Of a stretch of DNA of 64,000 nucleotides, positions 9,512 to 63,149 are shown piece by piece. The DNA comes from Pseudoips prasinana. Lineage: Eukaryota; Arthropoda; Insecta; Lepidoptera; Nolidae. The stretch lies in NCBI GenBank assembly GCA_951640165.1, contig OX621234.1, positions 5,957,001 to 6,021,000 on the forward strand. Reading direction: 5' to 3'. Made by a program: the position numbers and the translations under genes. The notes beneath the pieces are model-generated. The model saw only the letters and a program-made list of their open reading frames with translations. It searched no databases and was not told the DNA's origin. Numbering within the stretch: the stretch's first letter is position 1; each line of letters starts with the position of its first letter.

Positions 9512-9652
9512 CCTAGGCGGGGCTTTATTGACCGATTGTCAGTTGCAAAGCGCATGTGCAACACGCATGCGATATTGCGTTTTTTTTAATAAATGGCATT
9601 GATTTCCTAGGTCTCGTTGCGCCACTGCTCGGTTCCGCGTTGCCTAGACAAG
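9512..9652 (+). promoter_or_regulatory. Shared promoter block, copy A
   Basis: CCTAGG at 9512, a 31-bp core at 9547-9577 (AAAGCGCATGTGCAACAC then GCATGCGATATTG), TTTCCTAGGTC at 9603-9613, then about 40 bp of 5' leader ending TGCCTAGACAAG directly before the ATG. The core is identical base for base in copy B and close in copy C. The run holds a CATGTG E-box-like hexamer and a GCATGC palindrome. No TATA box is obvious. Promoter function is inferred from position and conservation. Confidence 0.55.
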
Positions 9653-12600
9653 ATGTTTGAAGAATTCCAATATTCTCGCTTTGTGACTCCAGGTTTGATT
9701 AGGAATTTAAGTAACTGTTGTATATGTGTCCGTACAAAGTTGATTTGTTTAAAATACATATACGTGCCGCATGAATATTTTGAAGTATGCCGTTAGGTAT
9801 GGATCGGTGTCTCTTTGTAAGGTAGCTTTATTAAGTCCAAGTGCAAGTTCGAAGTGTATGTGTACAAAAATGTTATTGCAGTCTACTTGTAAATAATACT
9901 GCTGTTAAGTGAAGCATCGCAACGCACTTGCGCTTTCAATTTAAAGGTCTAATGTGAACATGTAATTTTTTGTTACTTTAGTTTTTCTGTGTTGTGCCTT
10001 ACACTGTTTTTGCGACTTGATTTTCTATGATTTTTCAACCTTGATCATATGCGATTCTATGATAAAGCTTGCGTTATATGTTGTCTTATCTCTGGCATCA
10101 ATTTACTTCAATTCCATCATTGCATTTCAAAACGTAGAGAATCTTTGTGTTTACATTCTGTAGTCATGCCATACCCTTTTGCACGCATTTGATGTCTTTG
10201 GGTGTTCTTATTGCCATCACTGTCACAGTGGTGGTGAAGGTGTAACTTGGATCGTTGTTAATTGTGTGTTTATTCCAAATTTTACCCTGATTCAAGTGAT
10301 TAGTCGGCCCATTTCCTTACTCGCGTTTCAATTTTTTTAGATCATATTTTGAGCGCCTTGCTTGGGAGACTGAGCAACATATTTTCCTGTTTTGCGTCAC
10401 TAACATAGTACACAAAAGGTCTCTCTCAATTTTGTTGATTAAACTAGGCATCACAGGTGCTCGGGAGTCTAATGATACCTCCACCATACTTACTATATCA
10501 GTGTAAGTTTAATCTTTTGTCATAATTGGATCTAGTTTAGAAATGATATGGTTTTGTAAATTCCATTCGGTGTTGTGGAAACGTGAAAAATATTAAACAA
10601 AATGGCGGTGTAAAATGGCCGCTTTGGACACGCCCAGCAACCTGTATGAAATGCATGCGCAGAATACTCGCCTCGAAAATAGTATATAAATTATATTGGG
10701 ATAAAATAATTTTGAATATACACAGTATTATACAATCTCAAGTTCATTACCGGACTTGTGATATTTGCATTTCATTATACTATATAACAACAACGTAAAT
10801 GTTTAATACGAGTCAACTTTAATGTAGACAGCGCCCAGTATTAAGGTATCTAAGGGCACACGAGTCCAACTTGATTTTTTTTGCTAACTAATAAAATACA
10901 ATACCTAATTGCCAAGAGTAGTGTCGGATTTAAAAAAAAATATAAAAAAATAAAGAGTATAATTTGAAAACTGTCATAATACCAGGAGTGTCACTTAGGG
11001 CCTATGCACACCACGTTTTTTTTAACGCGCCGTCTACGTGATTAGGTATAATTCAGAAAAACTTAAAGTAACGTTGCTACAGTTTGAGTGTAATAGAATA
11101 GTAATATGGCGCAAATAAATTATAAAAAGTACACCAAAAAGGTTCCAAGTCTTAGTTTTTAATAAATTACAAAAGTTGTATGATAAGATAGAGATGATAG
11201 GGTATAAGTAAGTAGGTTTAATTATATTTTGCATGCACAAATTAGTGCACTCGATGTTCTAAATTCAAACTTACTTTACCCTCTAGAGGATAAAAACGAC
11301 TATTCCACTCAGATAACGAAAGTAAAAAAAATCTTTCCGAGATGGTGTGATGAAGTAGTTATTTGTTATACAAGAGTGCAAAGTGGCTTTTTAACCGCGT
11401 GCTCAATTTTGATAACCGAGCATGAGAAGGATTGTAAAATTAAATCACGAGCGCAGCGGGTGATTTAAAAATTAGAATCCTGAGCGTTAGCGAGGAAATC
11501 AAAAGAGCACAAGGTGAAAAATCCTTGCACTCGAGTGCAACACATAACTTTTCATCACACCTCAGCGAGGAAATGAAGAAATGCATAAAAGAAATCTTAT
11601 TATAAATACTTTTATTTATTTAGTTATTTTATTTAGTTGAGGTATTAATTACTATATTATGATATGTAAGTATTACAGGACAATCATTAAATTATAACAA
11701 ATCATATTTAGAGGTCTAATTAAGAAAAACTTAAAGTTACGTTGCTACAGTTTGAGTGTAATAGAACAGTAAGATTTCGCAAAACAAATTAAAAAAAGTA
11801 CACCAAGAAAATTCCGAGTCTTGGTTTTTAATAAATTAAAAAGTTGTATGATAAATTCGGCACCATAGAGGTAGAAGTAAATAGGTTTATAGTGCAACAA
11901 GAATCTTTATGAACGTGGCTGAAAGTGGAACTATCACCGCCATCTTGTAAAGTGACTCTTTGACAGTTCTACCACAGCTTGCTTTGCTGATTGCCGTTTC
12001 TACGTTTATTATTGTATTATTTGGTTTAAAACACTAACAATATGACAAAAGTGATAAAAAGTGGTGTTAGGGAAATAGTCCTAAAGGTTAAGGAGGTTTT
12101 CATGAAAGAAAGAAGCCTTCACTGTGTTAAGGCTCAATAATTCCATTTGAAAAAGTTAACGAGCGAGTTGCCGCCCCTATAGGAAAATGTTACCATGCTT
12201 TATTTTTAAGTCGCATCCGTGTATTAGTTTTTCGTTTGAAGTTTTTCATTAATGTAGTATTAAGTAATGCGAATGAAATATTAATTTAGAAATAAATTTA
12301 TTTATAAAGATAAAAATGACTGTATGACTGCATGATAAATCGATAATATATGGGATTCCCTATAAACTTTTAGAGTTAGATATTCCTGGGAAATTATTCA
12401 CACATGGCCCGTCAAAGTTATATAATACAATTGATACAAAATACAACGGATACAGTCTATTGCCATTGTAAAATTTTCCCATAATATTATGGAAATTTCC
12501 TTAAAAGCAACCCTTGGCGTCATAGTGTCGCCCTCCCACAAATGTCAGTCACGTTCATAAATATCCTTGTCCCACTGTTATATTTTGCATTCACAAACTT

Positions 12601-15600
12601 GGTGCACACAATGTTCTAAATTCAAATTTACTTTAACCTCTAGAGGATAAAACCGAATTCCGAATTCACTCAGATATCGAAGAGCAAAAATACTCTTTCC
12701 GAGATGGTGTGATGAAAAAGAAATTTGATAGATTGCGGTAGCTGAATGTGCTGGCGTCTGTACCATTAGATTCGGTTTGAGCGATAAATTATAGATATTT
12801 AATATTATGACATATGTATTTTTAGGTGACCACCCAAGGCCCACAAACGCTGCGTTGCTTGATCCACTTGACCCACTGTTACGTCGGCTGGGCACCCTGT
12901 TAGCCCGCAGAACACATGAATACCTCCAGGCCGAGATGTTTGTTGGGCGGGTAAATATACTCTGGTTGTAATTTATCTATAATTAGCTGTTCCCCGCAGT
13001 TAACTTTATAAATTATAGCCTATATGTTATTCAGATATAAAAGCTATATTACTACAAAGTTTCATCAAAATCTATTTGGTAGTTTTTGCGTGAAAGAGAA
13101 CAAACATACACACTCACAAACTTTAGTATTTATAATATTAGAGTGATATGTATATATTTATTTAGAAATGTTTAAATAATATAGCCGCGTAGTTTCCGGC
13201 CCAGAAAGGATTATAGGGACTAAGGGATTCACCATGTGTCACTCTACTAAGTGTGAATATTTATTAAGATGATTTTCTTTTGTTTCATTTTCAGGAACTG
13301 AATCGGGTGTTGGATGATATCCATCGAATCGCACACACTAATTTTGCTGAACACATGAACTTCGAACCCGACCACGACATGACTTTGGAAGAGTATAACG
13401 AGTCGTGTACGTATAATCCTTGTTCATATATTTACTACTTAGTAGGAAAAAAGATTTTATTAGACTGAATACTATACTATAATAATCGTATACGTCATCA
13501 TCATCATATCAGCCGAAAGACGTCCACAGCTGGACAAAGGCCTCCCCCAAAGATCTCCACAATGGCCGGTCTTGCGCTATCCGTATCCAGCGATTTCCAG
13601 CGACCCAGCGATCGTATATAGGCGTATACTATTCATAATGCTAGAGATCTTTTTTTTTTTTTGTTCGCCCACTTTGGCAGGCTAGACCATACCTGCTCGT
13701 CTTCAGTTGAAATATTTATAATTAAAAGTCAGTCAGTCATGTCCGTCACGTCCGTCACAGTCAAGTCATAGTCCTACCCCAGTAAAGCAGTGGAGACTTT
13801 ACTAGAGGCTTCTATGGAGTTTTGGTTTCAACACGGAAAATCATGATTCACGGCAATATCGCACTTTCTCCCACTTGTGTACGTTATCAAAGATGTTATG
13901 TCTAAAAATCCACCATATTTACACATATTAACTCGAATTTACACCAGTTTTTGAAAATAAAACAAAGCCTCGATACGTCCTTTTCCGCGTTGGCGCCAAA
14001 ACTCTGCTAGAGATCGCACATGTTCGAAATTTGAACATTAAAGTTCTATTGTCAAAGACTATAGACATTAATGTGTTCTCAGTTTTGACATTCAGTTGGT
14101 CATTTCTTCTCAGTTTGTCAGTGTGTCAAAAGCATGGTAGTGTGTTTAATGTTTTTTTTTATTATTGTACTATTTTATAAATATGTTTATGAGCATTCTG
14201 CACTCCTAACTGCACTCTTAACTGTTCCAAATTTAATACACCTCCGTCTGCACAATATTCGCAAAAATGATTAGTATTTGATTCACGTAGGTATATAATT
14301 ATTATTATGATTTAGATTATAAAATGAATGGGGAAGTCGCGATATGATACTCTAGATGATACGATAGATACTTTCATATTATTATCAAAACTTTATTGTA
14401 AAACATATTTCGTAGGCAAAATCATTGTCGCGTCATCCACAAAGAATAGAAAAATAGTAGATGAAGAAAAAGCCTAAAAATCAATTAAACAAAATAATTT
14501 ATTTAGGAGATGGCGGGACGAACTGGATGTCTTCGTTGAGAATTGGAAAGAGATGGCACACAGTCGTGAACGTTGGACAGAATGGAGGAAGGCCTTTGCC
14601 CAGCAGTGGGACAATAAAGGCTAAAAAAAAAATATTTAGAGTAGAAGAATATAAAAGTTAGGTAATTGGGTCGTAGGTTTATCAGTCTCAATTTCGAGTA
14701 CGGTCTGACAATATAAAATACCACTCTCCTGGCAGTGTCTTGATGTCCGGCGCAGTCGGCAGAGATGGTCGATCCCATGTAGTTTGTACCAGTATTAGTA
14801 AAAATATTTAGAAGGAATAATAATAGAAAAGTTGTGCAAGGGAATTGCACGACGTATGATGACTTCCGATTATTTTACCACAAGGATAATGCTTCAATTT
14901 GCTTCCATATAGGCTTTTTATAGCATTTTTTAAACAATCCATTAGATAAAAATATATAATATTATACGTCATGCAAACTGCTTTCACAAATTAGCATGAA
15001 GTTCGCGTCCACTTAGATCAGTTCTTATTAAGGGTTATTGCGGTTTCCAGATGACAACACCATCCAACCGTTCCTGGACAGGGTCGAGCGCATCCATCGA
15101 ATGGTTACCGTCCTGGAGAAACAAGCGGACAAAATATATTTCTATACCAAATATTTGAACGATCGGCTGCGTGAGAGAGGAGAACGAACGCGCAGGTAAG
15201 CTACTAAAAAGCTGTGTTATACCTACATACAATTTCATAAAATGCGGAGAATGCGTTTTAATTTATGACTGCACGTGCGGCGCAGCGGTTAATACAGTCG
15301 CATCACACCTTTTTGTCCTGGGTTTCGATTCCCGCACAGAACAACTATTTGTGTGACCTACCATTACCAATTGTTAATGTTACGTTGTTTAGCAAATTAT
15401 TTTATACTATGCGAAGTGTGAACTTTTCAATTTTGTAATATTTATAGTTTAATTATGTACAATTATCTTGTTTCTCCTCGGAGTGATTGTAAATCTTTGA
15501 GAAATAAAGAAATTCCAACCGTTTATTTAGCATAATCCGATTTTTTTTATTTCAGCCGGCGCATGCCCACCCCAGACACTGACGTGGAAGTTGTAACATT

Positions 15601-15643
15601 GTACAATGAGGAAGTATACAACTGCGATATTAGCTTAAACTAA
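9653..15643 (+). CDS. BLOS2-like tandem gene, copy A (5 coding exons, 169 aa)
   Basis: Coding exons 9653-9692, 12826-12950, 13295-13406, 15051-15195 and 15556-15643 join in frame with GT-AG introns of phases 1, 0, 1 and 2 to give 510 nt, 169 residues, stop TAA at 15641. The start is the first ATG after a promoter block shared with three other copies. Residues 46-92 (motif HEYLQAEM, then ELNRVLDDIHRIA) and 94-135 (QPFLDRVERIHRMVTVLEKQ) form helical, heptad-like stretches. Their order and spacing resemble the BLOC1_2 domain of BLOS2, a shared subunit of BLOC-1 and BORC, which act in lysosome-related organelle biogenesis and lysosome positioning. The N-terminus and the acidic tail (residues 142-169) match nothing I know. 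Exon structure and paralogy with copy B are seen directly. BLOS2 membership is inferred from remembered family sequence. No signal peptide or membrane segment is visible. Its introns carry several repeats, detailed separately. Confidence 0.72.
9693..10570 (+). other. Conserved 5' part of intron 1, copy A
   Basis: From the donor GTTTGATTAGG onward, islands align with copy B (50407-51190), copy D (32544-33250) and, as far as the window goes, copy C (63150-63300). Examples are GTGCCGCATGAATATT, ATCGCAACGCACTTGC, TGTGAACATGT, and a CGGCCATTTT-like stretch. No open frame is preserved across copies. It may be regulatory sequence or simply shared ancestry of the duplicated unit. Confidence 0.5.
11034..11600 (+). 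repeat. Interspersed element copy 1 in intron 1 of copy A
   Basis: AACTTAAAGTAACGTTGCTA, CAGTTTGAGTGTAATAGAAT, GAGATGGTGTGATGAAG, GAGCGCAGCGGGTGATT. Homologous to 11713-11889 plus 12580-12720. Confidence 0.65.
11890..12578 (+). mobile_element. Tc1/mariner-like remnant inside intron 1 of copy A
   Basis: Ends AGTGCAACAAGAATCTTTAT and, inverted, AGTGGGACAAGGATATTTAT, continuing GAACGTG on both. Contains the start of a transposase frame at 12042. Boundaries are uncertain by a few bases. Confidence 0.65.
12042..12140 (+). pseudogene. N-terminus of a transposase (IS630/Tc1-mariner type)
   Basis: Reads MTKVIKSGVREIVLKVKEVF then a stop. In another frame just after, IPFEKVNERVAAP resumes the pattern of N-terminal helix-turn-helix regions in insect transposases of this type. 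Rest deleted. Assignment is from memory and tentative. Confidence 0.45.
12984..13146 (+). repeat. Short CCCCGC repeat in intron 2 of copy A
   Basis: TTAGCTGTTCCCCGCAGTTA, TTTCATCAAAATC, GTGAAAGAGAACAAACATAC, TATAATATTAGAGTGATA. A relative is at 60122-60305, and others at 1969-2185 and 63455-63852. Confidence 0.65.
13496..13612 (-). repeat. RTE-type 3' tail in intron 3 of copy A
   Basis: CATCATCATCATATCAGCCG, GACAAAGGCCTCCCCCAAAG, AATGGCCGGTCTTGCGCTAT. Reversed (ATGATG)n tail. Confidence 0.75.
13720..14010 (+). repeat. Repeat X copy 2 in intron 3 of copy A
   Basis: CCGTCACAGTCAAGTCATAG to TTGGCGCCAAAACTC. The peptide frame begins SKAVETLLEASMEFWFQHGK but hits a stop soon after. Confidence 0.65.
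14020..14290 (+). repeat. Repeat V in intron 3 of copy A
   Basis: AAGTTCTATTGTCAAAGACT, CAGTTGGTCATTTCTTCTCA, ACACCTCCGTCTGCACAATA. Relatives are at 34270-34560 (minus) and 62685-62900 (plus). Confidence 0.6.
14556..14625 (+). repeat. RTE-type tail fragment in intron 3 of copy A
   Basis: GGAGGAAGGCCTTTGCCCAG then CAGTGGGACAATAAAGGCT. Confidence 0.55.
15263..15360 (+). repeat. tRNA-derived SINE (family D) in intron 4 of copy A
   Basis: GCACGTGCGGCGCAGCGGTT and GGGTTTCGATTCCCGCACAG, with a short body ending AACTATTTGTGTGACC. Confidence 0.65.
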
Positions 15644-16792: not shown

Positions 16793-16970
16793 GGATGGTA
16801 TGAGATGGTATGGTATGGTATGAGATGGATATTGGAATATAATAAAGTTATAAAATTTCATTTATATACACATTAATCCTCTACAGTTACCGTATTATCT
16901 ATATCCAGATCTGTCGAAAGTTACGGGGGGTGAGTGGTTCCAAAGGTTTGAATTGAATAACTAGAAGTTT

Positions 16971-19495
16971 CGCCCGGACCGCAGGAGTTTTACGTAGGGA
17001 GAAAACATGTCCTGGCGATTGGCTAGCGCTTAACTAAAGCACTACTACATGTTGATAGACTGCTTTGTTATATAGTGAGTTATTGGATAGATAAACCAGC
17101 TCCATTTGGGTTCGAACGGATGGTTTTGGAAAATCCTTGGAATATTGTATGAGTTATAATTTATTCAAACAATATTTCAAGGGATATACAGATGGCGTTG
17201 TTGTTTGGTATGAGCCCCAATGGAGCAAGTTAATCTGTCAACAATGATCATCATATAACTTAGAAGGACCTCCATGTAGGACAGACATGCAGTGCTTTAT
17301 GTAGGCGACTTGAGTTTTAAGTAATTAGTATTCACGGTCCGACTTGTCGTTCAGAATTGTTATCTTTCAGGTTCTACATAAGACAATTTGTGACTGTCGG
17401 TAAATTGTTTTATGTTTATCGTGATCTATTAATCATTCTGATCCAACGCGGACGGTGACCGCTATTTGCCTGAAACTCTGTAAAAGGTTAAGTTAAATTT
17501 GTGAACTCAACTTCCCAGGATGCCATTAGTTTGTGTGGTTTTGATATTAGTTTACATAAAATATATTATCAAATAATATTAAATAATATATTTTTTTGTT
17601 TTGTTCCAGTAATAGCAAAATAGAAAAACATTTATTTTATATTATTTGGTAGTATTCTCTATGTAATCTGTTACCGATACCCAGCTAAGGGCATTCCTGT
17701 GAAGCTTGACTCGCTCATTTAAACTGACCTAATGGAATGTATTTTCTATAGGAAAGCAATGGGTGGCGTTGTGTGTTGGAACATTTCACCTCGTTGTTTG
17801 TTGTTAAAGAATTGATTTCATCTTCCTTTCTTTGGTATTATGGTTTTCCAATATCTTCTTCTGCATTAAATTCAATAGCTACAGGCCCGTCGCCTCTATA
17901 CTTACCACCTTTTGATTAGTGTTTGTTTTTGGATCACAATGTACTGCCCTTTAGTTTTAAGATAGTATATAAGCTATGTATAAGGTAGGTTAGAGGCCGC
18001 CGTCAGACACTCGATATTTTCAGCAGTCTGTGTAATTAGTGTACACGGTCCAAATTTGTTATTAAAAATCATTGTTTTATCATATTTGTTAGAAACATTA
18101 TTGATCGTTTATGTGTCTTGCTTTTTTTCAATTTATTTTTTATTTATAGGTATACCAATTACATAACCGATTTGGAAGGTGTACACTAATTACACATACC
18201 ATTGTTATTAGAACATGTAACTGTTTGTCTTTATAAAAAGTTGTCCGAGGAACGGGTTCCAACTCGGTTTCCGGGGTAATAAATACTTCTTCGCTGGAGA
18301 GCCGTAAAGGCACCGCGGTGAGGATCCCCTGGGGCACTCCTCAGGAAATCCTCACTCGGTAATTGTTACTCCGAAACCGATTCGTTCTTCTCACAGCACG
18401 TTATGACGACAAGCTGTTCCATGATTTGATTACAATATATGTCATGGCACATTAAACAAATGAATATTCGAAATGGTGTATGACGCCGGTCGGCGTATCA
18501 TTAGAATTTTATATAAGAAAGTACTATAATATGTTGTGTATACGTATAAAAATAGAGATAAGACTGTTTACGTTTTGTTTCTAATTGATTGTTTACAGTC
18601 GCTAAAAGTATATAGGGCTCAGTATATTTGGGGTAACTGTCGCGATAATTTATTTAGATATTTTATAGTTCATTAATTATTTGTATGCACTTTTGAAAAA
18701 AGTACTGCGGTGATCTTTTTTAATAAATATTCAGAAAAAGATATTATTTATAGTTTTTTTATACTGATCAATTTAAGTGTATTTTTGAGTTTGGGCATTT
18801 AGATTGAGAATTATACAAAACTAGAAAATATAATCTTGTGCTGAATATTTATCACATTAGATGACCGAAGAATACTTTGCGAAATTGCATACGATGATTG
18901 GTAACTTATAAAATATCTGAACGTTAGGTTGAGGTAGCTCCACCAATTATTCTGGGCCTTAAATAAAACGCTGCTATCTCGCTCTCGCCTGGCTACATAT
19001 CAAGCTATACATTTCCATGAGCTTATATTGGAATTGTATAGCTTGATATGCAGCCGTGTGTACGTGTTTTATTACATACGAAATATGTGCCGCGGTTACC
19101 TTTTGATGTTAATATTCCGAAATATTCAGAGAAAGGTGTATATTTTTATGTTTTATAATGATTAAAATAGATGGATTCTTCTTCTGTGCCATTTATATTG
19201 ATTATAATAAGAAATATTAAAATATAAACTTGTTATGAATAATTTGGAATATATATACCAGAAGATGGCCGATGAAAGTTTTAACTCCTTTTAATTTCTA
19301 TGAGCTAAATGCACATAATAAACTTGTATATAATAATTTGATACTATCCAAGTGCGTGACCGAGATAGCTTTATTATGGATTCATACCATTAATTTTTTT
19401 TATTTACGTTTCCTTATGAAGGAATTTATTAATTTAATAATTGTTGTGTGTATTGTTTGTGCAATAAAGTTTATATGTGTCAAATTGTAGTTTAT
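16971..19495 (+). repeat. Unit A downstream block, duplicated at 57234-59922
   Basis: Starts CGCCCGGACCGCAGGAGTTT and runs beyond the end of gene A. About 17520-17655 is essentially identical to 57796-57931, including TTTGTTTTGTTCCAG followed by stop codons TAATAG. Homology weakens after about 17775 but resumes in patches (GGATCACAATGTACTGCCC; AATATTCAGAAAAAGATA) to the AT-rich end near 19495. No shared long open frame was seen. It could hold a non-coding transcript, a 3' regulatory region, or an old repeat carried along with the duplication. Confidence 0.65.
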
Positions 19496-26056: not shown

Positions 26057-26734
26057 GGGTACCTATATACTTAGATACTTTCCTTTCACGCTTCAAGTCG
26101 TGGGTTTGATTCCCACCCAGGACAGATATTTGTTTGCCTGAAATACATGTGTTTGTCCTGAGTCTAGGTGTAACTATCTATATAAGTAATAATAATAAGA
26201 ATATTTTATTTAACTAGTACAATATACCAGAATATGTTACAGTTTAATTCAGGCATGTACATTTGAATGGATCTTGTGTGGTTGTGCGTGTGCGTGTATG
26301 TGTGTGTGTGCGCGGATGTGTGTGCGTGTGTGTGATATTCTGCTTTTATATTGATGTAGTCAGGCGATATATGCGAGTAGAGATTCTGTGTATGCATAAT
26401 CTTTTTTCAATAGCCATTCTGTAACTTTAAATCGATATATGTGAGTGCTCAGTGTGTAGAACTGACGTGATGCGAAAGTTGTTTTGTGTATAGTACCAGG
26501 TACGATGTTATTTCTTTATTAGGAAAAGGTTGTGAAAAATTATTCTAAATATGTATTTACAGAAGAAAAGCAGTAAGTAAGTATATCAGTTATCTAGTTT
26601 CCATAGTACAAGCTCTCAATAGTTTGGGATCAGATGTCCGTGTGTGAATAATATCCTAAGAAAATAAATAAAATTAATATACCTATCTAATATCTTGGGA
26701 CAAGTAACACACTGCCATTTGCCTGTCACGGGCC

Positions 26735-26890
26735 TGTTGGCGTGGTTGGTAGATACGCTGCCTTTCACGCCGGAGGTCGTGGGTTCGATTCCCACCCGGG
26801 CCAAATATTTGTGTGCATGAACATGTCTGTTTGTCCCGAGTCTGGGTGTAAATTATCTATATAAGTATGTATATACAAAAAAAAATAGTA
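26735..26890 (+). repeat. tRNA-derived SINE (family C), 5' part
   Basis: GTTGGCGTGGTTGGTAGATA (A-box-like) and GTCGTGGGTTCGATTCCCAC (B-box) mark a tRNA-derived head, followed by GTCTGTTTGTCCCGAGTCTG. It stops where the pogo/Tigger-type element is inserted and resumes at 29461. Confidence 0.8.
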
Positions 26891-26892: not shown

Positions 26893-29458
26893 GGGTAAAC
26901 TCGTTAGAGATGGCCATACGGGAGAGATGGCCAATCGAATTATTTTTGGCGTGAATAGCTAGATGTCGCTAAAATGCAGTTAGTACGCTGCGAGCCACGC
27001 TCGGAAACAGAGTGCGACGACGCCGCTGCGCGTATTTATATTAAAAAGTAAGTAAATAAACTTTTATTTTACAGGGTATTGCAAAAATTATATAGTGTGG
27101 TCATATATTGTCGTGTAGTACTACTTTTTATCGCTATTTTTTAGTGTTTGTTTAGTTTATTGTGTTTAACAAATGTTAACGTCTCTTCTAACCTCAAAAT
27201 GGCGCCCGCCAATAGTTAACTAAATCTAAAATTTAATATGGCCATCTCACCCGTACAAAAAGGAGAGATGGCCACATAAATTCAGGTTGAGATAGCCATA
27301 TTATGTTTTGTTATTTGAAGTGATATTAATGAGTTTTATGTTTTGTTAAAGATGCCAAATAAGTACCAGAGAAAAGCCATAGCCACTCGTGGTTGTTGGA
27401 GTGAAGATTCACTAAAGGCTGCTATAAATTCCATAAAAAATGGAGAATTGTCGGTGTATAGAGCAGCAATTATCTACGACATACCTCGTAAAACACTTGA
27501 AAGAAGGTACAAGACTAACAATGACAAAAAGGGACCAATGGGACCTACCTCTATGCTTGGAGACCAAAATGAAAAAAAACTTGCTGATCATATTAAAACG
27601 ATGCAAGGAAAAGGATTCCCTTTGACAATTAGTGATGTAAGAGTGATTGCCTTTCAGTTTGCTGAGCAATTAAACATCAAACATAAATTCAATAAATCAG
27701 AGGAAAAGGCTGGCTATGATTGGCTGCAGATGTTTTTACGCAGACACCCAGATATTGTTTTGAGAAAGTCTGAAGGAGTTTCAATAGCCCGTTGTCAAGG
27801 TATGAACAGAGTCGAGGTCGGTGCTTACTTTGATTTGTTGGAAAAAATTCTCATAGACAATGATTTGATGACAAAGCCCAATTGTGTTTTCAATATGGAT
27901 GAATCAGGCCTACAGCTGAACAATCGCCCAGGACATGTACTCGCAGCAAAGGGTACTAAAGCTGTATCCACGACAACGTCAACTGAAAAGGGTGAAACCA
28001 TAACAGTCATAGCATGTTGTAATGCTGAAGGCACTTTTTTACCACCGGGCGTGTATCATGAAGGGTAAGAATAAGAAAAGCGAATATGAAGATGGAATGC
28101 CTCCAGGATCTCGTATTTTTATGTCCGAAAAATCCGCTTATATCACATCAGCAATATTTTTTGAATGGCTCAAAATACATTTAATGCCTAGAAAGCCGCA
28201 GGGAAATGTTTTACTATTGCTTGATGGTCACTCCACTCACTGCAATTCAGTAGAAATGCTTGAATATGCCAATGAAAATGAAATCATTCTTCTGTCTATG
28301 CCGAGTCACACATCTCATTTTTACAGCCCCTTGATAGGGCAGTGTTTAAATCGCTGAAACATCACTTTTATGAACAATGTCGGCTATGGATAAATCAAAA
28401 TCCAGGTCGCCGGATCACAAGACACTCATTTGGGTCATTATTAAATAAAGCATGGGGCAAGGCAGCTACAGCCGAAAACGCTATTTCTGGATTTAGAGCA
28501 TGTGGAGTGTTCCCATTTAATCCAGCAGCAATACCTGATTATGCATTCATCAGCGACCATGGAGTGACTAATATTCATTCAAGTTTACCTGTTTCTACAA
28601 GTGTAACGTCCATCACTCCACCAAATTCCAGAGAAACAGGTGGAAATGAACCATTAGCAATACCAGGAACATCTGCTGATCAATGGACGCCTTCTCGTAT
28701 TTTAAAAGACATATCCCCTATTCCTCAAAAAATAATGGAAGTTCGTAAACGTAGCAAACAGGTTGGCAAACTTTTGACTTCAGAGGAGCATATAGCATTA
28801 AGAAAGGACAAAGAGAACGAAAAGACTTTGAAAGAACAGAGGCGTAAAGTTAATCAAGAAAAAAAAAAGATTAAACCCAAAGATAAGAAGACTGATACAA
28901 ATAGAATTAGAAAACGGAAAGCTGTAAGGCGTATTAGCGAAAGCAGTTCTGATCTCAGTGAACCAGTATTGTGCGATACATCAGACGAAGAAGATAAAAA
29001 AAACGAAGCAGATAACTGTGCTGGATGCGGAGAAAATTATTATAAGACTCGTCTTGTGGAAGATTGGCTCCAGTGTCTTATGTGTGACAGATGGGTACAT
29101 GAAAACTGTACCGAGTTTGATGATATGTGCTCCAAATGTGGACAGAAGAAAAAAAAAGAAGCTAATCAAGCAGAATTTCAAGGCAAGGGAAAGGGAAAAG
29201 GGAAGACGAGTACTGGTCATCTATCCCGTATAGCTACGGCCAACACACCCTGAAGCCCCGGGAGAGATGGCCAATTCTAATTTTTTTTTTTTATTGTTTT
29301 TTAATATGTTTTTGAATAATAAAAAAATATTTGTCGTTGATTTTTAAAAGACTAATTACTGTTAATTATGATAAGAATAAAAGACTGATTGTAACAACAC
29401 TTTTTGATTTTTTTATTTTGCCTAGATAAAACTATGGCCATCTCTAACGAGTTTACCC
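26893..29458 (+). mobile_element. pogo/Tigger-type DNA transposon
   Basis: Perfect 26-bp terminal inverted repeats (26893-26918 and 29433-29458) begin GGGTAAACTCG and are flanked by TA duplications (26891-26892, 29459-29460). Between them lies one transposase gene on the + strand. The terminal motif GAGATGGCCA recurs inside at 26907, 26924, 27239 (inverted), 27265, 27289 (one mismatch), 29264 and 29435 (inverted). The perfect TIRs suggest recent movement, though the gene now reads with two frameshifts. Confidence 0.9.
27352..29253 (+). pseudogene. pogo/Tigger-type DDE transposase with C-terminal PHD-like finger, two frameshifts
   Basis: The first segment (27343-28068; natural ATG 27352, MPNKYQRK) holds a Psq-type helix-turn-helix (KAAINSIKNGELSVYRAAIIY), a CENP-B-like DNA-binding domain and the first catalytic Asp (FNMDESG). 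Reading then shifts one frame for 28053-28320 (second Asp in LLLLDGHSTH) and back for 28321-29253 (third Asp in LQPLDRAVF). D2-D3 spacing is 36 residues, typical of the pogo/Tigger branch of Tc1/mariner. A lysine-rich linker follows, then a PHD-like finger (CAGCGENYY, WLQCLMCDRWVHENC, CSKCG). The first shift is explained by one extra T near 28053, the second by one missing T in the T run at 28317-28322. All three Asp and the finger cysteines are present, so the gene was intact recently or the indels are assembly errors. Confidence 0.9.
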
Positions 29459-49603: not shown

Positions 49604-49836
49604 AATATCTAGGGAAAATGTCACACAGATCATCCTAGCCCCAAACTAAGCAAATGGGTACCAGGCGACGATATACATACTTATATAGATAAATAAATAC
49701 TTATAAACATAGAAAACATCCATGACTTAGAAACAAATATTCGTGCTCGCCACACAAATATTTGCAATTACCGGGATTCGAACCCAGGACCACCAGCTTC
49801 GTAGGCAGGAGCACTACCAACTAGGCTACGGTGACC
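49604..49836 (-). repeat. tRNA-derived SINE (family B)
   Basis: Near-complete minus-strand copy: head CCTAGTTGGTAGTGCTCCTG, B-box GTCCTGGGTTCGAATCCCGG, tail TGTCACACAGATCATCC on the plus strand. Confidence 0.8.
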
Positions 49837-50227: not shown

Positions 50228-50378
50228 TAGCTAGGGTACCTAGACCGGCAATTATTGACCGGTTGTGAGTGCCAAAGCGCATGTGCAACACGCATGCGAT
50301 ATTGAGTTTGACCTGAAAATTGCATTGATTTCCTAGGTCCCGTCTCATCAAAGCTGTGTTCGGCGTTACCTAGACAAG
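50228..50378 (+). promoter_or_regulatory. Shared promoter block, copy B
   Basis: Core at 50274-50304 identical to copy A over 31 bp, preceded by ATTGACCGGTTGTGAGT (A has ATTGACCGATTGTCAGT), followed by TTTCCTAGGTC at 50329-50339 and TACCTAGACAAG before the ATG. Conservation drops on both sides, so the block is a discrete unit. Confidence 0.55.
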
Positions 50379-53300
50379 ATGTCTGCGTATTATATTCTTG
50401 ATACAGGTTTGATTAGGACTATAAGTATGTCTGTTTTATGTGCGTCTGTACAAAGTGCCCGTCTTGATTCGATGTGTTCGTTAATCGAGTGGAAATGCCG
50501 CATGAATATTTCGATGTACGTAGCTAGGTATGCATGGTGTATGTTTAAGAGGTTGTATATCTACGAAAACTTTGTTAATTTACAAGTGCAAGAATTGAAA
50601 AAAAAATACAATTGAATTGAGAACCTCCTCCTTTTTCTGAAGTCGGTTATAAAACAGGTAAACGATAACGCTGGGCAAAAGACTTCATACTTTAGACATA
50701 TAATCGCAACGCACTTGCACTTAGAATTTAACAAAATGTAAACATGTAATATGTATCCCGACTAATGCTTATGTATTTCTTTAGTTGTCCAAGCTGTGCT
50801 GCGACATAAACTGTTTAAGCGACATGATTTCCAATGATTATTTTAATCCAGATATTTGCGAAACTATGATAAACTGTGCATTGGAACTGGCCCCGGCATG
50901 AATTTCTTAAAAATCCATCTTTGCGCTTGCAACCTTAAAATATTAGCTTCTATATACGTCGTATACTTACTACTTAGAGATCCATCTAGCCACAACCTTA
51001 TGCACGCGTTCCATATCTTCAACATTTATCTTTTATGAAAAAAAAAACCATCACTGTCATCGAGGGTGACTTGATGTTGTTGTATAATTCGTTGGTGCGA
51101 GTATAATCTGTGGTTCATGTTCAGTCGGCCATTTTACTTTCCCGCGCTTCGTGTTTTGTGGAATAATATTTAAAGCGATCTGAGAATCTTTGTAAACTTA
51201 CTGTTCAGTGTTATTATTTTGGATTAAACTGTAAATCTGGGAAATCTTCCGAAGACTGATTTCCGAATTAGTGTGAGATATATACAGGTATGTAGTTCCA
51301 TCGTGGAAATTTGTCTCTGAACAACTATTTGTGAAATGGATAATTTGGCCTAAAATACCTACTTACAGTCTGTCTTAATATTTATTTAAAAATAACTGCT
51401 TTGATACGGTTAAGAAGATTATATATGAGTAAGAATCTATCTAATTGGTTGCTTAAGTCTCGTATTACATGTTTTTTACGTTTGAAATGTATGTGTGTGT
51501 GCGCTGCGATGATTGTTAAAATGGTGCTTTTCGTAAAATAATATATTTATGTCACATTTGTGTAAAACATATTTATAATAACGCCGAAATTGTTGGTAAA
51601 TTAAAGTTCTTTAAGACAGCCTTTAAATTTAGCGTTCTATAATTTTCAAAGAACAAATTAAATGGTGGTGGAAATATTGCTACTTTGGACTAGTGTGATC
51701 ACTGGCATGCCAGTGGCATTTTTCAGGGCGAGGCTTAATAGGACTTTTCCGCACAGGGTAAACCATTTAAATTCCAAATATAAGCTACTTATTTCAAAAA
51801 GCACCGCAGACACATACTGTTTTTAAATTTTAATAAGTATGTTAAAAACGAATTTTGTATTTTTCTGTATATGGGGTTTTGTTCTGGCCCGATCTCTAAA
51901 ACGGCGAGACCGATTTTGGCTGGACTTTCTCTACGAGGAAGCTAATATTATAAGGTCTGATATAATATGATAGCTTCTGCTCGCGAACCTCCCCCCACAT
52001 TTTTTTGCAGTTTTCTCTAAGTTATATTTATATCGCTTGGGGATAGTACTTATTTTATGTATAAAACCAAAATAAAAACAATGAAAAGGCCGCGGGTGCA
52101 GCCAATATTCGATTAAAATATAAAATACATTTGAATCACAGTCGCATAAATTAACTTAATTTATACTTAAAATTTCATTTTCATTCCGTGGGACTCGAGC
52201 TCAACCAATTTCTTATCAACTAGCCGTGCCCCGCGGTTTTACACGCGTTAAACTTTATAAATTATCACAGCTCCTCCCCCGTAGGTGATAGCGTGATAAT
52301 ATGTAGCCTATATGTTGACCCGACCTATTGGTAATATTCATGCAAAATTTTAAGTAAATCCATGCAGTACTTTTCGAGTTTAGCCCGGACATACATACAG
52401 ACAAACAGACACACAGACCTAAATTTTAAAAACTATATTATTGTCTTCGATATCGATTGTAGATCACGCCCCAAGAATCCTTTTTCAAAAATATTCAATG
52501 TACAGTTTTGACATTCCTACGATTTTATTATATGTATAGATATATGTATGTGGGTGTTAATAGGAAAATGTTAACGACATGCTGACATTTTTTAAAGTGA
52601 AATTTCGGCTCTTAGTTTTTAGATCATCAATCGCATGTCGCAATATGGTGTCCATGCCTCGCATCAGCTAACCGTGTGGCATTCAAATTCCCACTCATTT
52701 GTAAAAGTGCTCCACGGTATTTATGGTATCGAAAATTCTTTGTTAAAAAAGGAACATTAGCGGCGAGTCTTAAACAAAATGGCCTCTCAAAACTCATAAC
52801 GCGCATGCGTGTAACTGGTTTTTAATATAACAACAAATAATGAACAAATAAATAAATCACATTGTTTAAAGCTTTTAAATGTCTTCTAATAGTAATAAAA
52901 AAGTAAGTTCTCTATGTAGTAAAGTATTTATTTAAAAAAAAATATATTTTATCCCTTTTAATAATTATGGTTTTGTCCGTACATTATACTTTAACTCACT
53001 TAAGGCGTTTGGGCCCATTGGTAAAAATAAGCTAAGAAAAATTAATGAGTCCCAAGTCCATTATTGTAGAATTCATATACAATGTAAATTGTTACTGAAT
53101 TAATAAATAATTAACATTTCAAATAAGCACATTAATAATGAACTGAATAAGATACAAATAAACTTTTCATCAAAAATATCCGAATTATTCCAAAGATTCC
53201 ATGTTAGTAAAATAAATAAACATTAATAATGATAGTCGATATAATAACTAAAACTAAACATATTAATATAAGTAAACACATAGTTATAGATTGCTCCCAA

Positions 53301-56300
53301 TCTGGTTGCTTTATCATGAGATGAGGCAATATTTATATCTTTCCGATGACGGAGACGTTCTGAATTTAAACCATTCTGGCGGTCACCCATCCATATACTG
53401 AGCACGTGCCTGGGTGCTTTTCTTCTCCAATCTTGTACCTGCAAATCAGTGATAGCAATTGGCTATTTTATTTCTTTTTACATTAGTAATTAACATAAAA
53501 AAATAATACTGAATAAAAAAATACTGACAATCGCATAAAATCAACTTTTATGTGATTGTCAGCTTTCTTGCCTTTCTTACAAAGATAATGAAAATAAAAG
53601 CGTATCTTTTTAAAATGAAAACAGGTTACATATATGATGGTTAAAAGGATACACCTTATGACAGAAATACTGACGGCGTAGCTTAATACTATGGTTTCCT
53701 TTGGTTGTTCTAAGGTACTCATTCTTTTTGGAGTGTTATTCAATGTTTTGTTATATTTTCAGAGCCATGCCCAACTATGCCCAGTTATGGCAAAGTGCGC
53801 TATCCAAATGATCCAAAGTTGATGAAGAAGGCCGACGAGTTTTTCCATCGAGCTAATGAATACCTCCAGGCTGAGGTAGCTTTTAGTCAGGTAAATATAC
53901 TATTATCCCTACAATATAAGGGGTGTATATAATATTACCCCTTACAAAACTAGATTCCCTACAGAATATTTTTCTATAACAAACTTCCCACTGATATCAG
54001 AGAAATGTCTATCGATAAGTTTAAAAAGCTATAAAGCCAAAAAAAAAGGCTTGGGATTGAGTCGCTCTAAATTAACACATTTATACAATGTAATTTTATG
54101 TTAAGAAATAAATATTTAAAAAATGGATTCCTACTGAGTTTTCTGGCAGTGTTTCTCAGACGCTGTCACGTCATACATTTCGCGGTAGGGTAAAAAAAAT
54201 TGACGATTTCACATAGGTGTACTATATTAACGGAATACATGAATTTTGAATTTGAAAGGCTACCTTTCTACCGAAGCTGTGCGACGAGTATATTATGCAG
54301 ATGACTTGAGGGGGGGGGGGGGGTGCAGAAGTCTTCCCTGAGGGAATATCTCCCAGAGAATGTGCAGCAGCGTCCGTCTCTCTGTGTACTATAAACATCA
54401 GACTACGAATGCCAACTCGTCTGCCAAGCGTGGCGATTTTGGGACATGCCTCCAAATGATGGACACTATTTGGGGATGCCCTTGTACAACACTTGAAGTC
54501 ATTCTGCTGACATGATGATGGGGGGGTGTTGATTTATATAATATACTTATTTGTACACCTACAAATATTTTTTGTTATGTTTCAGGAGCTTAGCCGCCTG
54601 CTGAATGAGTTCAGACGAATTGCCCTCAATAAAATTCGACGTTTGAACAAATCGCTTGTCAACCGCACCTATCGCGTACCTGCTTACAAGGAAATATGTT
54701 TGTATAATTTATGTTATTTTTTTCATTGACTTATATGTATAACTAGACACGCTGCACGCCCGCGCTGCAACTCGGTGAGCAAATTCTCAATATGGGATTG
54801 CGCATCTAGTAGAATACATATAGGTCAATGATTTTTTTAAATGAAAATAATCATGTCGACTTAGGTTAGCACATAATTTTACCGTTGGGGCCGTTGAGGC
54901 AGAAAGATTCTCGAGTGGCGACCACGAACAGGAACATGTCGCGTGGGCAGGCCCCCTACAAGATGGACCGATAATTTTCTGAGCGATGCGGATAGCGTCA
55001 GACCAGCAATTGTGACAGGCTGTTGTCCAGCAGTGGACGTCTTTCGGCTGATATGGTGATGATGATGAAGTAGGTTTATAGGGAAAGCTGCAAACAAATA
55101 AAAGAACCGTGTAATTAACGTTTTAGACTACATCTCAGGTCTTCAAGAAGAAATTAGTTTAGTTATGCCTCTGATTCCATACAGTTTGTCTCAGTAATTA
55201 TTGTTTTTTTTAACGAATAAAAATAAAAAACAGATAATTGCTGCCCATGCGAGAAAGATCTATACTATATTTTACTATAATGAATATGAAACATTTTGGT
55301 AGGTTTTGCTTGAGTAAATTAAAATTATGTTAATTATTTAATGTTTGTTTATTTATTTTTTGCCACACACGTCCTGAGTTTAAATCCTATGCAGAATGTT
55401 TATTTAATTAAAAATAGATAAGTATACTTATTAAGACATTAAGATGTGTGGTACAGGTTTAACCTAGTACTGGCATGAACTGTTCATAGCTTGTTTTTAA
55501 TATAAATATATAATTTTGTATACATTCCTACTTGAATAAAAAATAATTATTATATCTATTCTATTCTAATCTTTGTGGTTGCAGTTGACACCTCAATGAT
55601 AGATGTGGTTGAAGAGATCGATCGCTTCCAGAAAATGGTTACCCTGTTAGAGAAGCAGGCGAAATTACATGACAAATTTACGAGAGAGAAGAAGAAGACT
55701 CTAAAGCAACGTCTTACCGGAAATCACGGAAGGAATATCGAGTAAGCTTACATATCTTACAACAGCGTTTTTTTTAATGCACATCAATGAGCTCCTTCAC
55801 CATCAATTTAAATTCATCGATTAAATAATTTTCATATCTAATATACTGATTGTACATTCAATGTAGCCGGACGTAACTGAAAATGTATTTAGCTACTAGA
55901 AAAGTAGGTTAGATTAGGTTAAAACTGTGGCCATACAACGCACGGGCCGAGTGAGTGAAGAGAGTGCCGCGGCAGCGGCCGCCCAGTGCCAGGAACAAAT
56001 TTAATTACAGAAAAAATCTTTTTTAAGTATATGGCAATAGCAATACGTCGTCAAATTAATTTCTGCTAAGATTAAAATATTTTGAGATCACTATTTTGCC
56101 GTGCAATCGGTAGTTTTTCTTAGGGTACGGAATTTTCGATACTCGTAATACATATAATATATAGAATACCTGAGCCCCATGACAAAGTCGTAAAAAAATT
56201 GTAAAGAACAGAGGAGGATATTTCTTTAGTAGTGTAAAAGCCTTTTAAAACACCAGCTCTACTAACTATCTACTAGAGTCATGCGTGAGATATGATGAAT

Positions 56301-56445
56301 GTGAGATTTAAAAAATGAGGTATGCTGCAGACAAGCATTATCAAATTACTTTCATTTCAGAGGGCGATCGCGTATCACAGAGAATGGGACGGCAATTGTA
56401 TTTTACGAAGATGAAGACTATGATTACGACAACTATATTTTTTAA
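50379..56445 (+). CDS. BLOS2-like tandem gene, copy B (5 coding exons, 169 aa)
   Basis: Coding exons 50379-50406, 53763-53890, 54586-54697, 55585-55741 and 56361-56445 join in frame with the same intron phases (1, 0, 1, 2) as copy A. Total is 510 nt, 169 residues, stop TAA at 56443. Exon 2 ends with NEYLQAEVAFSQ and a donor gtaaatatac identical to that of copy A. Exon 3 is 112 nt in both copies. Exon 4 keeps MVT-LLEKQA but then turns strongly basic (REKKKTLKQR). Exon 5 encodes an acidic, tyrosine-rich end (YEDEDYDYDNYIF). As in copy A, the central helices recall BLOS2 (BLOC-1/BORC). The termini are unrecognised. Exon 1 is 12 nt shorter and exon 4 is 12 nt longer than in A, with small compensating differences in exons 2 and 5. 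An open frame through five exons with consensus splice sites argues for a functional gene, perhaps with a changed partner specificity. Confidence 0.72.
50407..51260 (+). other. Conserved 5' part of intron 1, copy B
   Basis: Aligns with intron 1 of A and D (see the copy A entry), for example GCCGCATGAATATTTCGATG, TAATCGCAACGCACTTGCAC and TTTTGTGGAATAATATTTAAAGC; the last is close to GTTGTGGAATAATATTTTAA in D. The rest of this 3.36-kb intron holds an interspersed repeat at 52219-52545. Confidence 0.5.
52219..52545 (+). repeat. Repeat Z copy in intron 1 of copy B
   Basis: CTAGCCGTGCCCCGCGGTTT to CCTACGATTTTATTATATGT. Confidence 0.7.
52560..53330. other. Intron 1 of copy B, unannotated part
   Basis: AT-rich. 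One CATGCG-type repeat scrap near 52785-52815 (ACAAAATGGCC, CGCGCATGCGTG). No other signal until the 53345 repeat. Confidence 0.5.
53523..53561. repeat. 17-bp-arm hairpin in intron 1 of copy B
   Basis: CTGACAATCGCATAAAA, loop TCAAC, TTTTATGTGATTGTCAG, one mismatch. Confidence 0.85.
53965..54240 (+). repeat. Jockey-like 3' end plus adjoining repeat in intron 2 of copy B
   Basis: FYNKLPTDIREMSIDKFKKL followed by a deletion and the same stop context (TTGGGATTGAGTCGCTCTAA) as 48495-48730. Then CTACTGAGTTTTCTGGCAGT to GCGGTAGGGTAAAAAAAA, a repeat shared with 48720-48850 and, inverted, 3240-3335. Confidence 0.6.
54285..54520 (+). repeat. Non-LTR 3' fragment in intron 2 of copy B, with a long G tract
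   Basis: Shares AACTCGTCTGCCAAGCGTGG and CTGCTGACATGATGATG with 31165-31372. Contains an uninterrupted run of about 14 G at 54310-54323. Confidence 0.6.
54880..55072 (+). repeat. RTE-type 3' tail in intron 3 of copy B
   Basis: CAGAAAGATTCTCGAGTGGC, CCCCCTACAAGATGGACCGA, TCCAGCAGTGGACGTCTTTC, then (ATG)n. Confidence 0.75.
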
Positions 56446-56808: not shown

Positions 56809-57076
56809 TATCTGTCAATAATTTGAGAAAGGTATTTATGATTTGATTTCTATCTGTCAATAATTTAAGAATGGTATTTATGATTTGATTTCTATCTGAC
56901 AATAATTTGAAATGGTATTTATGATTTGATTTCTATCTGACAATGATTTGAGAATGGTATTTATGATTTGATTTACATCTGTCAATAATTTGGGGATGGT
57001 ATTTTTGATTTGATTTCTATCTGTCAATAATTTGAGAATGGTATTTATGATTTGATTTCTCTCTGATTATTTTTGA
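56809..57076. repeat. 42-bp tandem repeat 3' of gene B
   Basis: TATCTGTCAATAATTTGAGA then ATGGTATTTATGATTTGATT recurs with marks at 56811, 56853, 56895, 56936, 56978, 57020 and 57062. Degenerate TTTTTGATTT pieces follow to about 57120. Absent from the matching place in unit A. Confidence 0.9.
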
Positions 57077-57233
57077 GTATTTTTGATTTTTATCTGAGTA
57101 TTTTTGATTTTTATTTACAATTACCATGGTTATTTTAAATGATCGAGGGGCCAATACTTCCAATGGTTTTCACGTAGTTTTAATGATATTTAATGTATTT
57201 GTGTCTAACCTAGCATATTGTTGTAAGTAATAT

Positions 57234-59922
57234 CGCCCGGACCGCAGGAGTTTACGTAGGGAGAACACATGTCCTGGCGATTGGCTAGCGCTTAACTAAA
57301 GCACTACTACATGTGGGAAGACTGCTTTGTTGTATAGTGAGTTTTTGTGTAGATAAACCAGCTCCATTTGGGTTAGAATGGATGGTTTTGGAAAACATAT
57401 CCTTTGAATATTGTTTGGGTTACAATCCGTTAGATCAAACAATATTACAAGGGAAATACAGATGGTGCTTTTGTTTGGATGAGCCCCAATGAAGCAAGTT
57501 AATCTGTCAACAATGATCATTTTATAACTTAGAAGAATCTCCATGTAGGGCAGACATGAAGTGCTTTATTTAGGCGACTTGAGTTTTAAGTAAATAGTGT
57601 TCACCATCCGACTTGGCGTTCAGAATTGTTAACTTTCAGGTTTTACATAAAACAATTTTTTTGGCCGATTTTGAATTGTTTTATGTTTATCGTGATTCTG
57701 ATGATGATGATTCTGATCCAACCCGGACGGTGACCGCTATTTGCCTGAAACTCTGTAAAAGGTTAAGTTAAATTTGTGAACTCAATTTCTGAGGAATGCC
57801 ATTAGTTTGTGTGGTTTTGATATTAGTTTACATAAAATATATTATCAAATAATATTAAATAATATATTTTTTTGTTTTGTTCCAGTAATAGCAAAATAGA
57901 AAAACATTTATTTTATATTATTTGGTAGTATTTTCTATGTAATCTTTTACCGATACCCAGCTAAGAGCATTCCTGTGACGCTTGACTCGCTCATTTAAAC
58001 TGACCTAATGGAATTAATTTTCTGTAGAAATGCAACGGGTGGCGTTGCTTTTTGAATGATTTCATCTTGCTTTCTTTGGAATATGGTTTGCAATACCTTT
58101 TCTTGTTGTATGAAGTTCTACGTTGTTGCTTTATCTTTTATCTCATCTTTGTTTATATATTTAATATATGGATTATTATCATTTTTATTTTAGCTTTGAT
58201 TTCTATATATTTTTGGATCCCAATGTACTGCCCAATAGTATTAAGATAATTTATAAGCTATATATAAGGTAGTTTATAGGTCGCCGTCATACACTTATTT
58301 TATACTGGAGTTTGGTATTTTAATGGTTTCTTGGAGTCAAAAGTTGATCACGATACATTAAATTACGTTTTACATCTATTTATAGAGTTTGTTCCTTTAA
58401 TATATTTTGTCAGCCTGTATTTATCCAAGTGTTCAGCTTGCGTGTAAAAGCGCTCACACACATACCAACCACTGAATTATAAGTTACTTAAATACCTATT
58501 AAACGTTAAAGTTTCCATACATACTGCTTTATCAAATATAATTTTGATCTGTTCAAATCGATTTTAAATGTAGTTCTGTTTCAGTTTCAACCAATTAATA
58601 TTCAATGCCAACGTCAGTTCAGTTTCAACAAATTAATATTCAATGCCAACGTCAGTTCAGTTTCAACAAATTAATATTCAATGGTGGTGTGTGATGCCGA
58701 CCTATAGCTAAATAGATTTATTCCTCTAAAGAGGGACGGTATTTAATGTAATGTTTAGGTAAGAAATTTATAGTAGTGCAACATGAGCACGAAAAAGAAG
58801 GTCTAAGACTTTTACTTGTACTTTTACTTAGTTTTGTTCCTAGTTTCAAGAGGTTTAAGTTAAATTATATTTGACACGTGCAAGTCGCTCTAGCATTTCA
58901 GTATTTTTAGGATATTAAGTAAAATATGTAATACAGTTTCAAAAAATATGTTTCGGCCAATTATTTAGTTTAATATTATTAAATATTCAGAAAACGATTT
59001 TATTTTTGTTCTATATTGACCAATATAAATGGGTTTAGTGTTTCGTCCCATGTATATTGATCATTATAAGAAATATTTGAATAAGAACTTTTTCTGAATA
59101 TTTCGGAGTATTTTTGACTAGGTACATGACCGAAGCACATTTTAAAAGTGGGTACTTTAATTTAACCTTATATATAAAATACTTGTCTCACAGTGTTTAT
59201 AATATATAACAATATGCAATTTAATTTCCAAAAACGTGTTTCGGTGAATTATTGATTTTAATATTCTTAAATATTCAGAAAAAGATTTAATTTTAGTCCT
59301 ATATTGACCACTATAAATGGGTTTAGAGTCTTGTCCCATGTATATTGATCATTATAAGAAATATCTAAGTAAGAAAATTTTCTGAATATTTTTGAATATT
59401 TTTACCAAGACGACCGAAGCACATTTAAAAGTGAGTACTATAATTCTACCTAATATATTAAATTCTCGTGTATCAGTGTTTGTCTGCAAAATCCTCCGAA
59501 ACGGATGACCGATTCTTAGCACCAAATTTTTTTCTTTTTTTTATTATGATTGGCACTAAAATACATAGAACCCTACATTTTTACCGTTTCTACAACCGAA
59601 TGCTTCTTCTACCGATTCCTATTCTACCTCTCATTCGATTCTAATATTTTAATTTATTTTTGATTTTATTGGTTACATCAATGATTAGATTAAAAATTGG
59701 TAGGTTTTAGTTCTAATGTTAAGGCAGTATGTTCGCCGAGACAGTTGGTATTCTATAAAATACTTAAACGCGTGAGCGAGATAACTTCAGTCGTGATTCT
59801 AGCCATCTAAAATGTATCCACATTAAAGTCGAAAAGTATTAATAAGTATTTTCAATGTCATTATATGTTGTTGTATTAAGTTAATAAATGTTATATGTCT
59901 CAAATTGTTGTTTATTTGCTAA
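57234..59922 (+). repeat. Unit B downstream block, duplicated at 16971-19495
   Basis: Same order of homologous patches as in unit A: CGCCCGGACCGCAGGAGTTT, ATGTCCTGGCGATTGGCTAG, GTGACCGCTATTTGCCTGAA, GCTTGACTCGCTCATTTAAA, then ATTCAGAAAA-type patches, ending about TTATATGTCTCAAATTGTTG. Near 58975-59450 an AATATTCAGAAAA...GTCCCATGTATATTGATC module of about 300 bp occurs twice in tandem. Confidence 0.65.
58582..58682. repeat. 38-bp tandem repeat, about 2.7 units
   Basis: CAGTTTCAACAAATTAATAT then TCAATGCCAACGTCAGTT at 58582, 58620 and 58658. Confidence 0.85.
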
Positions 59923-62900: not shown

Positions 62901-62963
62901 AAGAATTACTTCACTTATTAATATTCAGATGATATGATATATAATGGTATCGCCCTTTTGATA

Positions 62964-63109
62964 CCTAGGTGTCCTAGGTGGGGTTTTATTGAATAATTTA
63001 ATCCAAAGCGCATGTGCAACACAAATGCCATATTGATTTACATCAGCTAGCTGCATAGATTTCCTAGGTCCCGGAGCGTCACAGTTGCTTTTAGCTTCGC
63101 TCAGTTAAG
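62964..63109 (+). promoter_or_regulatory. Shared promoter block, copy C
   Basis: Two CCTAGG motifs (62964, 62973), core at 63005-63035 with a few substitutions in its 3' half (ACAAATGCCATATTG against ACGCATGCGATATTG), TTTCCTAGGTC at 63060-63070. Spacing to the ATG is about the same as in A and B. Confidence 0.5.
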
Positions 63110-63149
63110 ATGTCACAGAATTCCCAGACTACTCAAGATATGGATTCAG
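63110..63149 (+). CDS. BLOS2-like tandem gene, copy C, exon 1 (gene continues past the window)
   Basis: ATG at 63110, 13 codons (MSQNSQTTQDMDS) plus one base, then a donor CAG|gttcgctt at 63150. Length (40 nt) and phase match exon 1 of copies A and D. Upstream lies the shared promoter block (CCTAGG motifs at 62964 and 62973, core 63005-63035, TTTCCTAGGTC at 63060). The start of intron 1 aligns with the other copies, including the run gaatgaaagtgctgc shared with D. No further exon appears before 64000. In A and B the second exon lies over 3 kb downstream, so the remainder should lie to the right. Whether it is intact cannot be told. Confidence 0.6.

Follow-up and report, generated by a model that had tools for sequence, protein, structure and literature searches.

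Diverged BLOS2 duplicates in a tandem array on the likely Z chromosome of Pseudoips prasinana

What is a run of similarly built but strongly diverged genes doing in one stretch of the Pseudoips prasinana genome, and from what did it arise? The stretch analysed here, the window, comprises 64,000 nucleotides (C33:5957001-6021000) of a 1.126-Gb assembled genome in 56 contigs. A sequence-only reading had described in it four plus-strand copies of one gene, 13-23 kb apart from start to start, and had likened their central helices to BLOS2. The spacing is right, and all four copies (A, D, B and C) are borne out. Around the window we examined C33:5897001-6150000 and 6420001-6480000, with 6150001-6420000 covered by whole-genome searches alone. 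The copies lie on the plus strand of the contig in the order E, A, D, B, C; A, B and C are open, and D (inside the window) and E (upstream, outside it) are relics. We conclude that the window contains the larger part of an array of tandem BLOS2 duplicates, which is made up as follows (window positions unless the contig is given):

C33:5941416-5941729, + strand: relic E, 15.6 kb before the window; exon 1 and conserved start of intron 1
9653-9692, + strand: copy A exon 1, phase 1 (script-joined model)
9693-9862, + strand: copy A conserved start of intron 1, A-B identity 0.75 (alignment of A, B, C and D)
12826-12950, + strand: copy A exon 2 (script-joined model)
13295-13406, + strand: copy A exon 3, 112 nt (script-joined model)
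15051-15195, + strand: copy A exon 4, donor GTAAGC (a hexamer overlapping the stop in the parent)
15556-15643, + strand: copy A exon 5, acidic tail with stop (gene model)
32504-32543, + strand: relic D exon 1 (sequence comparison)
32544-32713, + strand: relic D start of intron 1, identity 0.77 to C and 0.72 to A
about 33656-33672, + strand: relic D, scrap resembling the start of A exon 4 (by eye, unscored)
50379-50406, + strand: copy B exon 1 (script-joined model)
50407-50576, + strand: copy B conserved start of intron 1 (alignment and shuffles)
53763-53890, + strand: copy B exon 2 (script-joined model)
54586-54697, + strand: copy B exon 3, 112 nt (script-joined model)
55585-55741, + strand: copy B exon 4, donor GTAAGC (script-joined model)
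56361-56445, + strand: copy B exon 5, acidic tail with stop (gene model)
63110-63149, + strand: copy C exon 1, remaining exons beyond the window
63150-63319, + strand: copy C conserved start of intron 1 (alignment and shuffles)
C33:6028146-6028288, 6029405-6029516, 6030343-6030486, + strand: copy C exons 2-4, outside the window, clear
C33:6033314-6033393, + strand: copy C exon 5, predicted

With the exons rejoined by script and splicing predicted, A and B each have five exons and encode 169 aa. All four introns of both run from GT to AG in phases 1, 0, 1, 2, exon 3 is 112 nt long in each, and the second donor is GTAAATATACT in A and in B; the common structure described earlier thus stands. Extension to the right completed copy C, whose model, with its predicted exon 5, encodes 172 aa in phases 1, 0, 1, 1. 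Exon 1 of relic E meets an early stop at codon 6.

The parent of the array is an ordinary BLOS2 gene on the opposite strand of the same contig, about 440 kb beyond the window, which we located through a Pfam BLOC1_2 search of the genome (exon match at C33:6464085):

C33:6472936-6472870, 6468085-6467955, 6466290-6466179, 6464203-6464055, - strand: parent BLOS2, four exons, 152 aa

Without exon 1 the parent protein scores 85.5 bits against BLOC1_2 (PF10046), above the curated cut-off of 33.4, and matches the solved BLOS2 chain 9tqb_H. The whole protein has 31 lepidopteran matches at 55-73 percent identity, 28 of which carry a species name, with one entry per named species. Among these 31 orthologs 56 columns are at least 95 percent invariant, and the parent keeps 52 of them (92.9 percent), the orthologs themselves having a leave-one-out minimum of 93.0 and a mean of 98. 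The stem common to parent and array is long, at 0.56 changes per site, and the parent lineage may therefore have sped up too. BLOS2 exon 4 with flanking intron also occurs at C30:18083981-18084139, where it matches the parent at 97 percent identity across 196 bp; we regard this fragment as a recent partial DNA copy of the parent on another contig.

Tpi and period, which are Z-linked in Lepidoptera, were matched on this 46-Mb contig only. Since these two and BLOS2 itself make three markers there, the contig is likely the Z chromosome. PMC6188861 reports BLOS2 on the Z in Bombyx, Spodoptera litura and Samia, and gives the Samia gene four coding exons and a 438-bp CDS.

That A, B and C descend from a BLOS2 gene is supported by their top Pfam family, their collinear exons and the tree. 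In a profile search with the joined exons, BLOC1_2 is the top Pfam family for all three, at 32.3 bits for A, just below the 33.4 cut-off, 25.8 bits for C (exons 2-4 only), also below it, and a weak 18.3 bits for B, for which Tektin comes next at 16.0. Exons 2-4 of the copies are collinear with the parent's, in phases 1, 0, 1, and exon 3 has the parent's length of 112 nt in each of them. A tree built with the 31 lepidopteran BLOS2 proteins has a branch (support 94/99, unstarred) that puts A, B, C and the parent on the same side. A processed retrocopy is ruled out by the parent's three intron positions, all of which are occupied in A, B and C, and the copies therefore arose by DNA duplication. 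A stretch of intron 1 common to the copies and the parent is 80-81 percent identical over 43-51 bp. A duplicate made by the assembly is ruled out by the identity between copies in exons 2-4, which is just 0.57-0.59.

The strong divergence remarked on in the sequence-only reading is evident in the proteins. Identity to the parent is 49 percent in A, 37 in B and 39 in C, and the copies keep 28, 22 and 27, respectively, of the 56 invariant BLOS2 residues, of which orthologs keep at least 93 percent when each is left out in turn. End branches measure 1.42 changes per site in A, 3.21 in C and 6.07 in B, against zero in the parent and an ortholog median of 0.1, although the tree program warns that long branches are possibly misplaced and the joining of A with C possibly false. 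All three copies retain residues of two motifs, E-Y-x-Q-A-E and M-V-x-x-x-E-K-Q-A, and hydrophobic columns are still hydrophobic at 33 of 42 positions in A, 31 in B and 27 in C (raw counts, no null). In A and B, to judge by the alignment, a proline has entered the middle of the aligned core.

Are such frames still maintained? Pairwise NG86 dN/dS, a rough guide here because dS (0.79-2.14) is near saturation, is 0.25 for A, 0.26 for C and 0.70 for B against the parent, and 0.57 (A-B), 0.49 (A-C) and 0.50 (B-C) between copies; a range of 0.25-0.70 does not show positive selection. Identities at the three codon positions are 0.68, 0.73 and 0.49 between A and the parent; between B and the parent (0.56, 0.65 and 0.55) the pattern is far less clear. 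When the parent CDS was evolved neutrally to the same divergence, in runs that ignore indels, the frame stayed open in 4 of 2000 runs for A, 0 of 2000 for B and 1 of 2000 for C. Because neutral runs so seldom keep the frame open, we read the frames of A, B and C as being under selection, relaxed or shifted.

Upstream of each open copy lies a 24-bp element, AAAGCGCATGTGCAACACGCATGC, which has three matches at up to 3 mismatches in the 1.126-Gb assembled genome, the reversed-pattern control having 0:

9547-9570, + strand: private element of copy A, 0 mismatches, 106 bp before the ATG
50274-50297, + strand: private element of copy B, same sequence as in A, 105 bp before the ATG
63005-63028, + strand: private element of copy C, 2 mismatches, 105 bp before the ATG

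At that tolerance the genome search places it in neither relic D, relic E nor the parent. Its position makes it likely a promoter element, and it may resemble NRF1-type palindromes. The neighbouring non-coding sequence is better kept than the coding exons: between A and B, identity is 0.81 over the 150-bp 5' flank, 0.75 over the initial 170 nt of intron 1 and 0.57 over exons 2-4, against shuffled means of 0.49, 0.53 and 0.50. The corresponding values are 0.71, 0.66 and 0.59 for A-C, and 0.69, 0.66 and 0.57 for B-C. The A-B likeness of flank and intron start is beyond chance (0 of 200 shuffles match either score); a comparison with lenient gap costs is uninformative, its shuffles scoring about as high as the true pairs. 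The flank is well kept among the open copies only, identity of open copies to D or E being 0.48-0.61, with four of the six open-relic pairs exceeding all 200 shuffles. The start of intron 1 is kept also in relics D and E (0.63-0.77) and partly in the parent, and for this reason it is probably an older regulatory stretch. An Rfam scan of the window found no known structured RNA in this intron start; its two hits lie elsewhere, are tRNA-like (26731-26803, + strand, 29.8; 49763-49835, - strand, 33.3; cut-off 29) and are possibly SINE remains.

Another conserved block lies 0.8-1.3 kb downstream of the A and B stop codons (window 16970-18020 and 57233-58301) and occurs a third time at C33:5910800-5911602, about 30 kb upstream of relic E. 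The occurrences are 84-90 percent identical over 0.8 kb, the A-side and B-side blocks 84 percent over 1.08 kb; other genome matches amount to only 227 bp (same contig, 10.5 Mb) and 46 bp (C4). The block is better conserved than the array genes, and no shared long reading frame was seen in it. The window also holds tandem repeats and further open frames:

7769-8339: tandem repeats near A, 73-bp unit, 7.8 copies
27343-29253: three adjacent open frames, the first matching HTH_psq and HTH_Tnp_Tc5 of transposases, the third with no Pfam family match
36442-37998, - strand: 518-aa reverse transcriptase frame (RVT_1, 124 bits)
56809-57066: tandem repeats near B, 42-bp unit, 6.1 copies

The array models differ from the parent in having a predicted fifth exon. 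The parent CDS ends in ACG AAG TAA GC, which contains the hexamer GTAAGC overlapping the stop, and the exon-4 donor is GTAAGC in A and B and GTAAGT in C. Splicing at this donor is predicted to bypass the old stop and to add exon 5, which encodes an acidic tail. B and C resemble each other in this exon (shuffle p 0.0002 for nucleotides and 0.0094 for amino acids; 0.0006 against random stretches of the region), and A and B do so more weakly (0.013, 0.069 and 0.013, respectively); A and C show no significant similarity (shuffle p 0.75 and 0.71). Tail net charge is -3 in A, -6 in B and -8 in C, the acidity of C being partly an effect of how its exon 5 was chosen, by a scan that required an acidic or aromatic tail. 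The same exon is also the best-scoring downstream match of B exon 5 (tblastn E 0.42). The last intron is in phase 1 in the C model versus phase 2 in A and B, and without exon 5 the fourth exon of C reads on to a stop 17 codons further; C could be a four-exon gene. A search beyond the parent gene found nothing convincing as exon 5, and the aligned lepidopteran BLOS2 proteins end near the parent's stop, with a few short extensions.

Nothing resembling the array proteins came back from searches of 5.8 billion proteins: query A gave 163 candidates and a profile of A, B and C gave 2611, none at E up to 1. The bar was high, with even ordinary BLOS2 unreturned, and relatives of the array in other species could therefore be missed. 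At the level of titles and the starts of abstracts, with few subscription papers covered, the literature searched shows no duplicate array of BLOS2 or another BLOC-1/BORC subunit in insects. Within the genome, GCN5L1 (BLOS1) has one place, so at least that partner appears not to have been co-duplicated; the Snapin_Pallidin family, in which two genes are expected, was also found at one place, by a search that is to that extent incomplete.

By descent, the nearest known kin of the array genes is lepidopteran BLOS2, or BLOC1S2 (the Bombyx od gene; SrBLOS2 of Samia ricini), with which they share collinear core exons, phases 1, 0, 1, the 112-nt exon 3 (in the parent) and likely Z linkage. Ordinary BLOS2 has four coding exons (Samia, parent), mostly about 140-150 aa (126-186 among the 31 matches) and short branches, whereas the array genes carry an upstream element of their own, are predicted to have a fifth exon and sit on end branches some 14-60 times as long as the ortholog median. 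Insects have testis-specific duplicates of housekeeping subunits, and the array would share with them duplication, a new promoter and fast coding change; it differs in that its source gene encodes a BLOC-1/BORC subunit. Old World monkeys offer a parallel for the gain of an exon by BLOS2 in one lineage: PMC6822395 describes BLOC1S2 transcripts with a transposon-derived exon. There the exon belongs to extra transcripts of the ordinary gene, whereas in the array it is a predicted terminal exon of duplicates.

What, then, might the copies do? The reading we prefer, with confidence about evenly divided for and against it, is that the open copies of this likely Z-linked array, sharing the private element and the predicted exon 5, encode fast-changing BLOS2-type subunits for a tissue-restricted complex. 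Duplication would have placed BLOS2 under a new promoter, and the latent donor at the stop would have supplied the added tail. The copies would then have diverged quickly, yet retained enough of the helix pattern for pairing with BLOC-1/BORC partners in place of BLOS2, with tail and altered surface changing what the complex binds. Expression would be confined to certain tissues, with the male germ line the likeliest; we infer this from the separate element, the likely Z linkage and the excess of testis-specific genes on the silkworm Z, put at 1.6-1.75 times in PMC3755909. The earlier suggestion of new sex-biased or germline roles is plausible given likely Z linkage, the private upstream element and the predicted extra exon. 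More tentatively, and in our view less likely than not, the genes may be a Z-linked, promoter-sharing BLOS2 family that forms alternative male-germline BLOC-1/BORC-type complexes, with acidic tails gained by bypassing the stop and divergence driven by sexual or genomic conflict.

The copies may instead have left BLOC-1/BORC and become coiled-coil proteins of some other structure, for example in sperm, on an inherited BLOS2 helical scaffold. We find this doubtful, though the retention of just 22-28 of 56 invariant residues, the near-equal scores of B against Tektin (16.0) and BLOC1_2 (18.3) and the mid-core proline of A and B all fit it, because both motifs keep their residues in all three copies and 27-33 of 42 hydrophobic columns stay hydrophobic. 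A partly retained core lacking invariant residues would also suit dominant-negative or dosage modulators of the parent, which would take up its partners but assemble no functional complex and so tune lysosome-related organelles such as urate granules; loss of BLOS2 gives translucent larval skin in Bombyx and Samia, according to PMC6188861. Co-expression with the parent is not indicated, however, since the parent is without the private element, and we regard such modulation as unlikely. Least probable in our judgement is that the array consists of decaying, functionless duplicates in which A, B and C are still open by happenstance. D and E have indeed decayed, B-parent dN/dS reaches 0.70 and the protein database gave nothing array-like, but the frame survives neutral runs in only 4 (A), 0 (B) and 1 (C) of 2000, the codon-position identities of A and the parent (0.68, 0.73, 0.49; B-parent much less clear) speak against this reading, and element and spacing are kept by the open copies only.

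BLOS2 is a subunit common to two trafficking complexes, and in this lineage the ordinary gene has been retained beside diverged copies. The array lineage is thus an experiment of nature, by which to ask what surfaces of BLOS2 can be dispensed with and whether there are tissue-specific forms of BLOC-1/BORC-type complexes. Furthermore, the route to a new terminal exon by splicing past a stop would be a compact and checkable case of exon birth.
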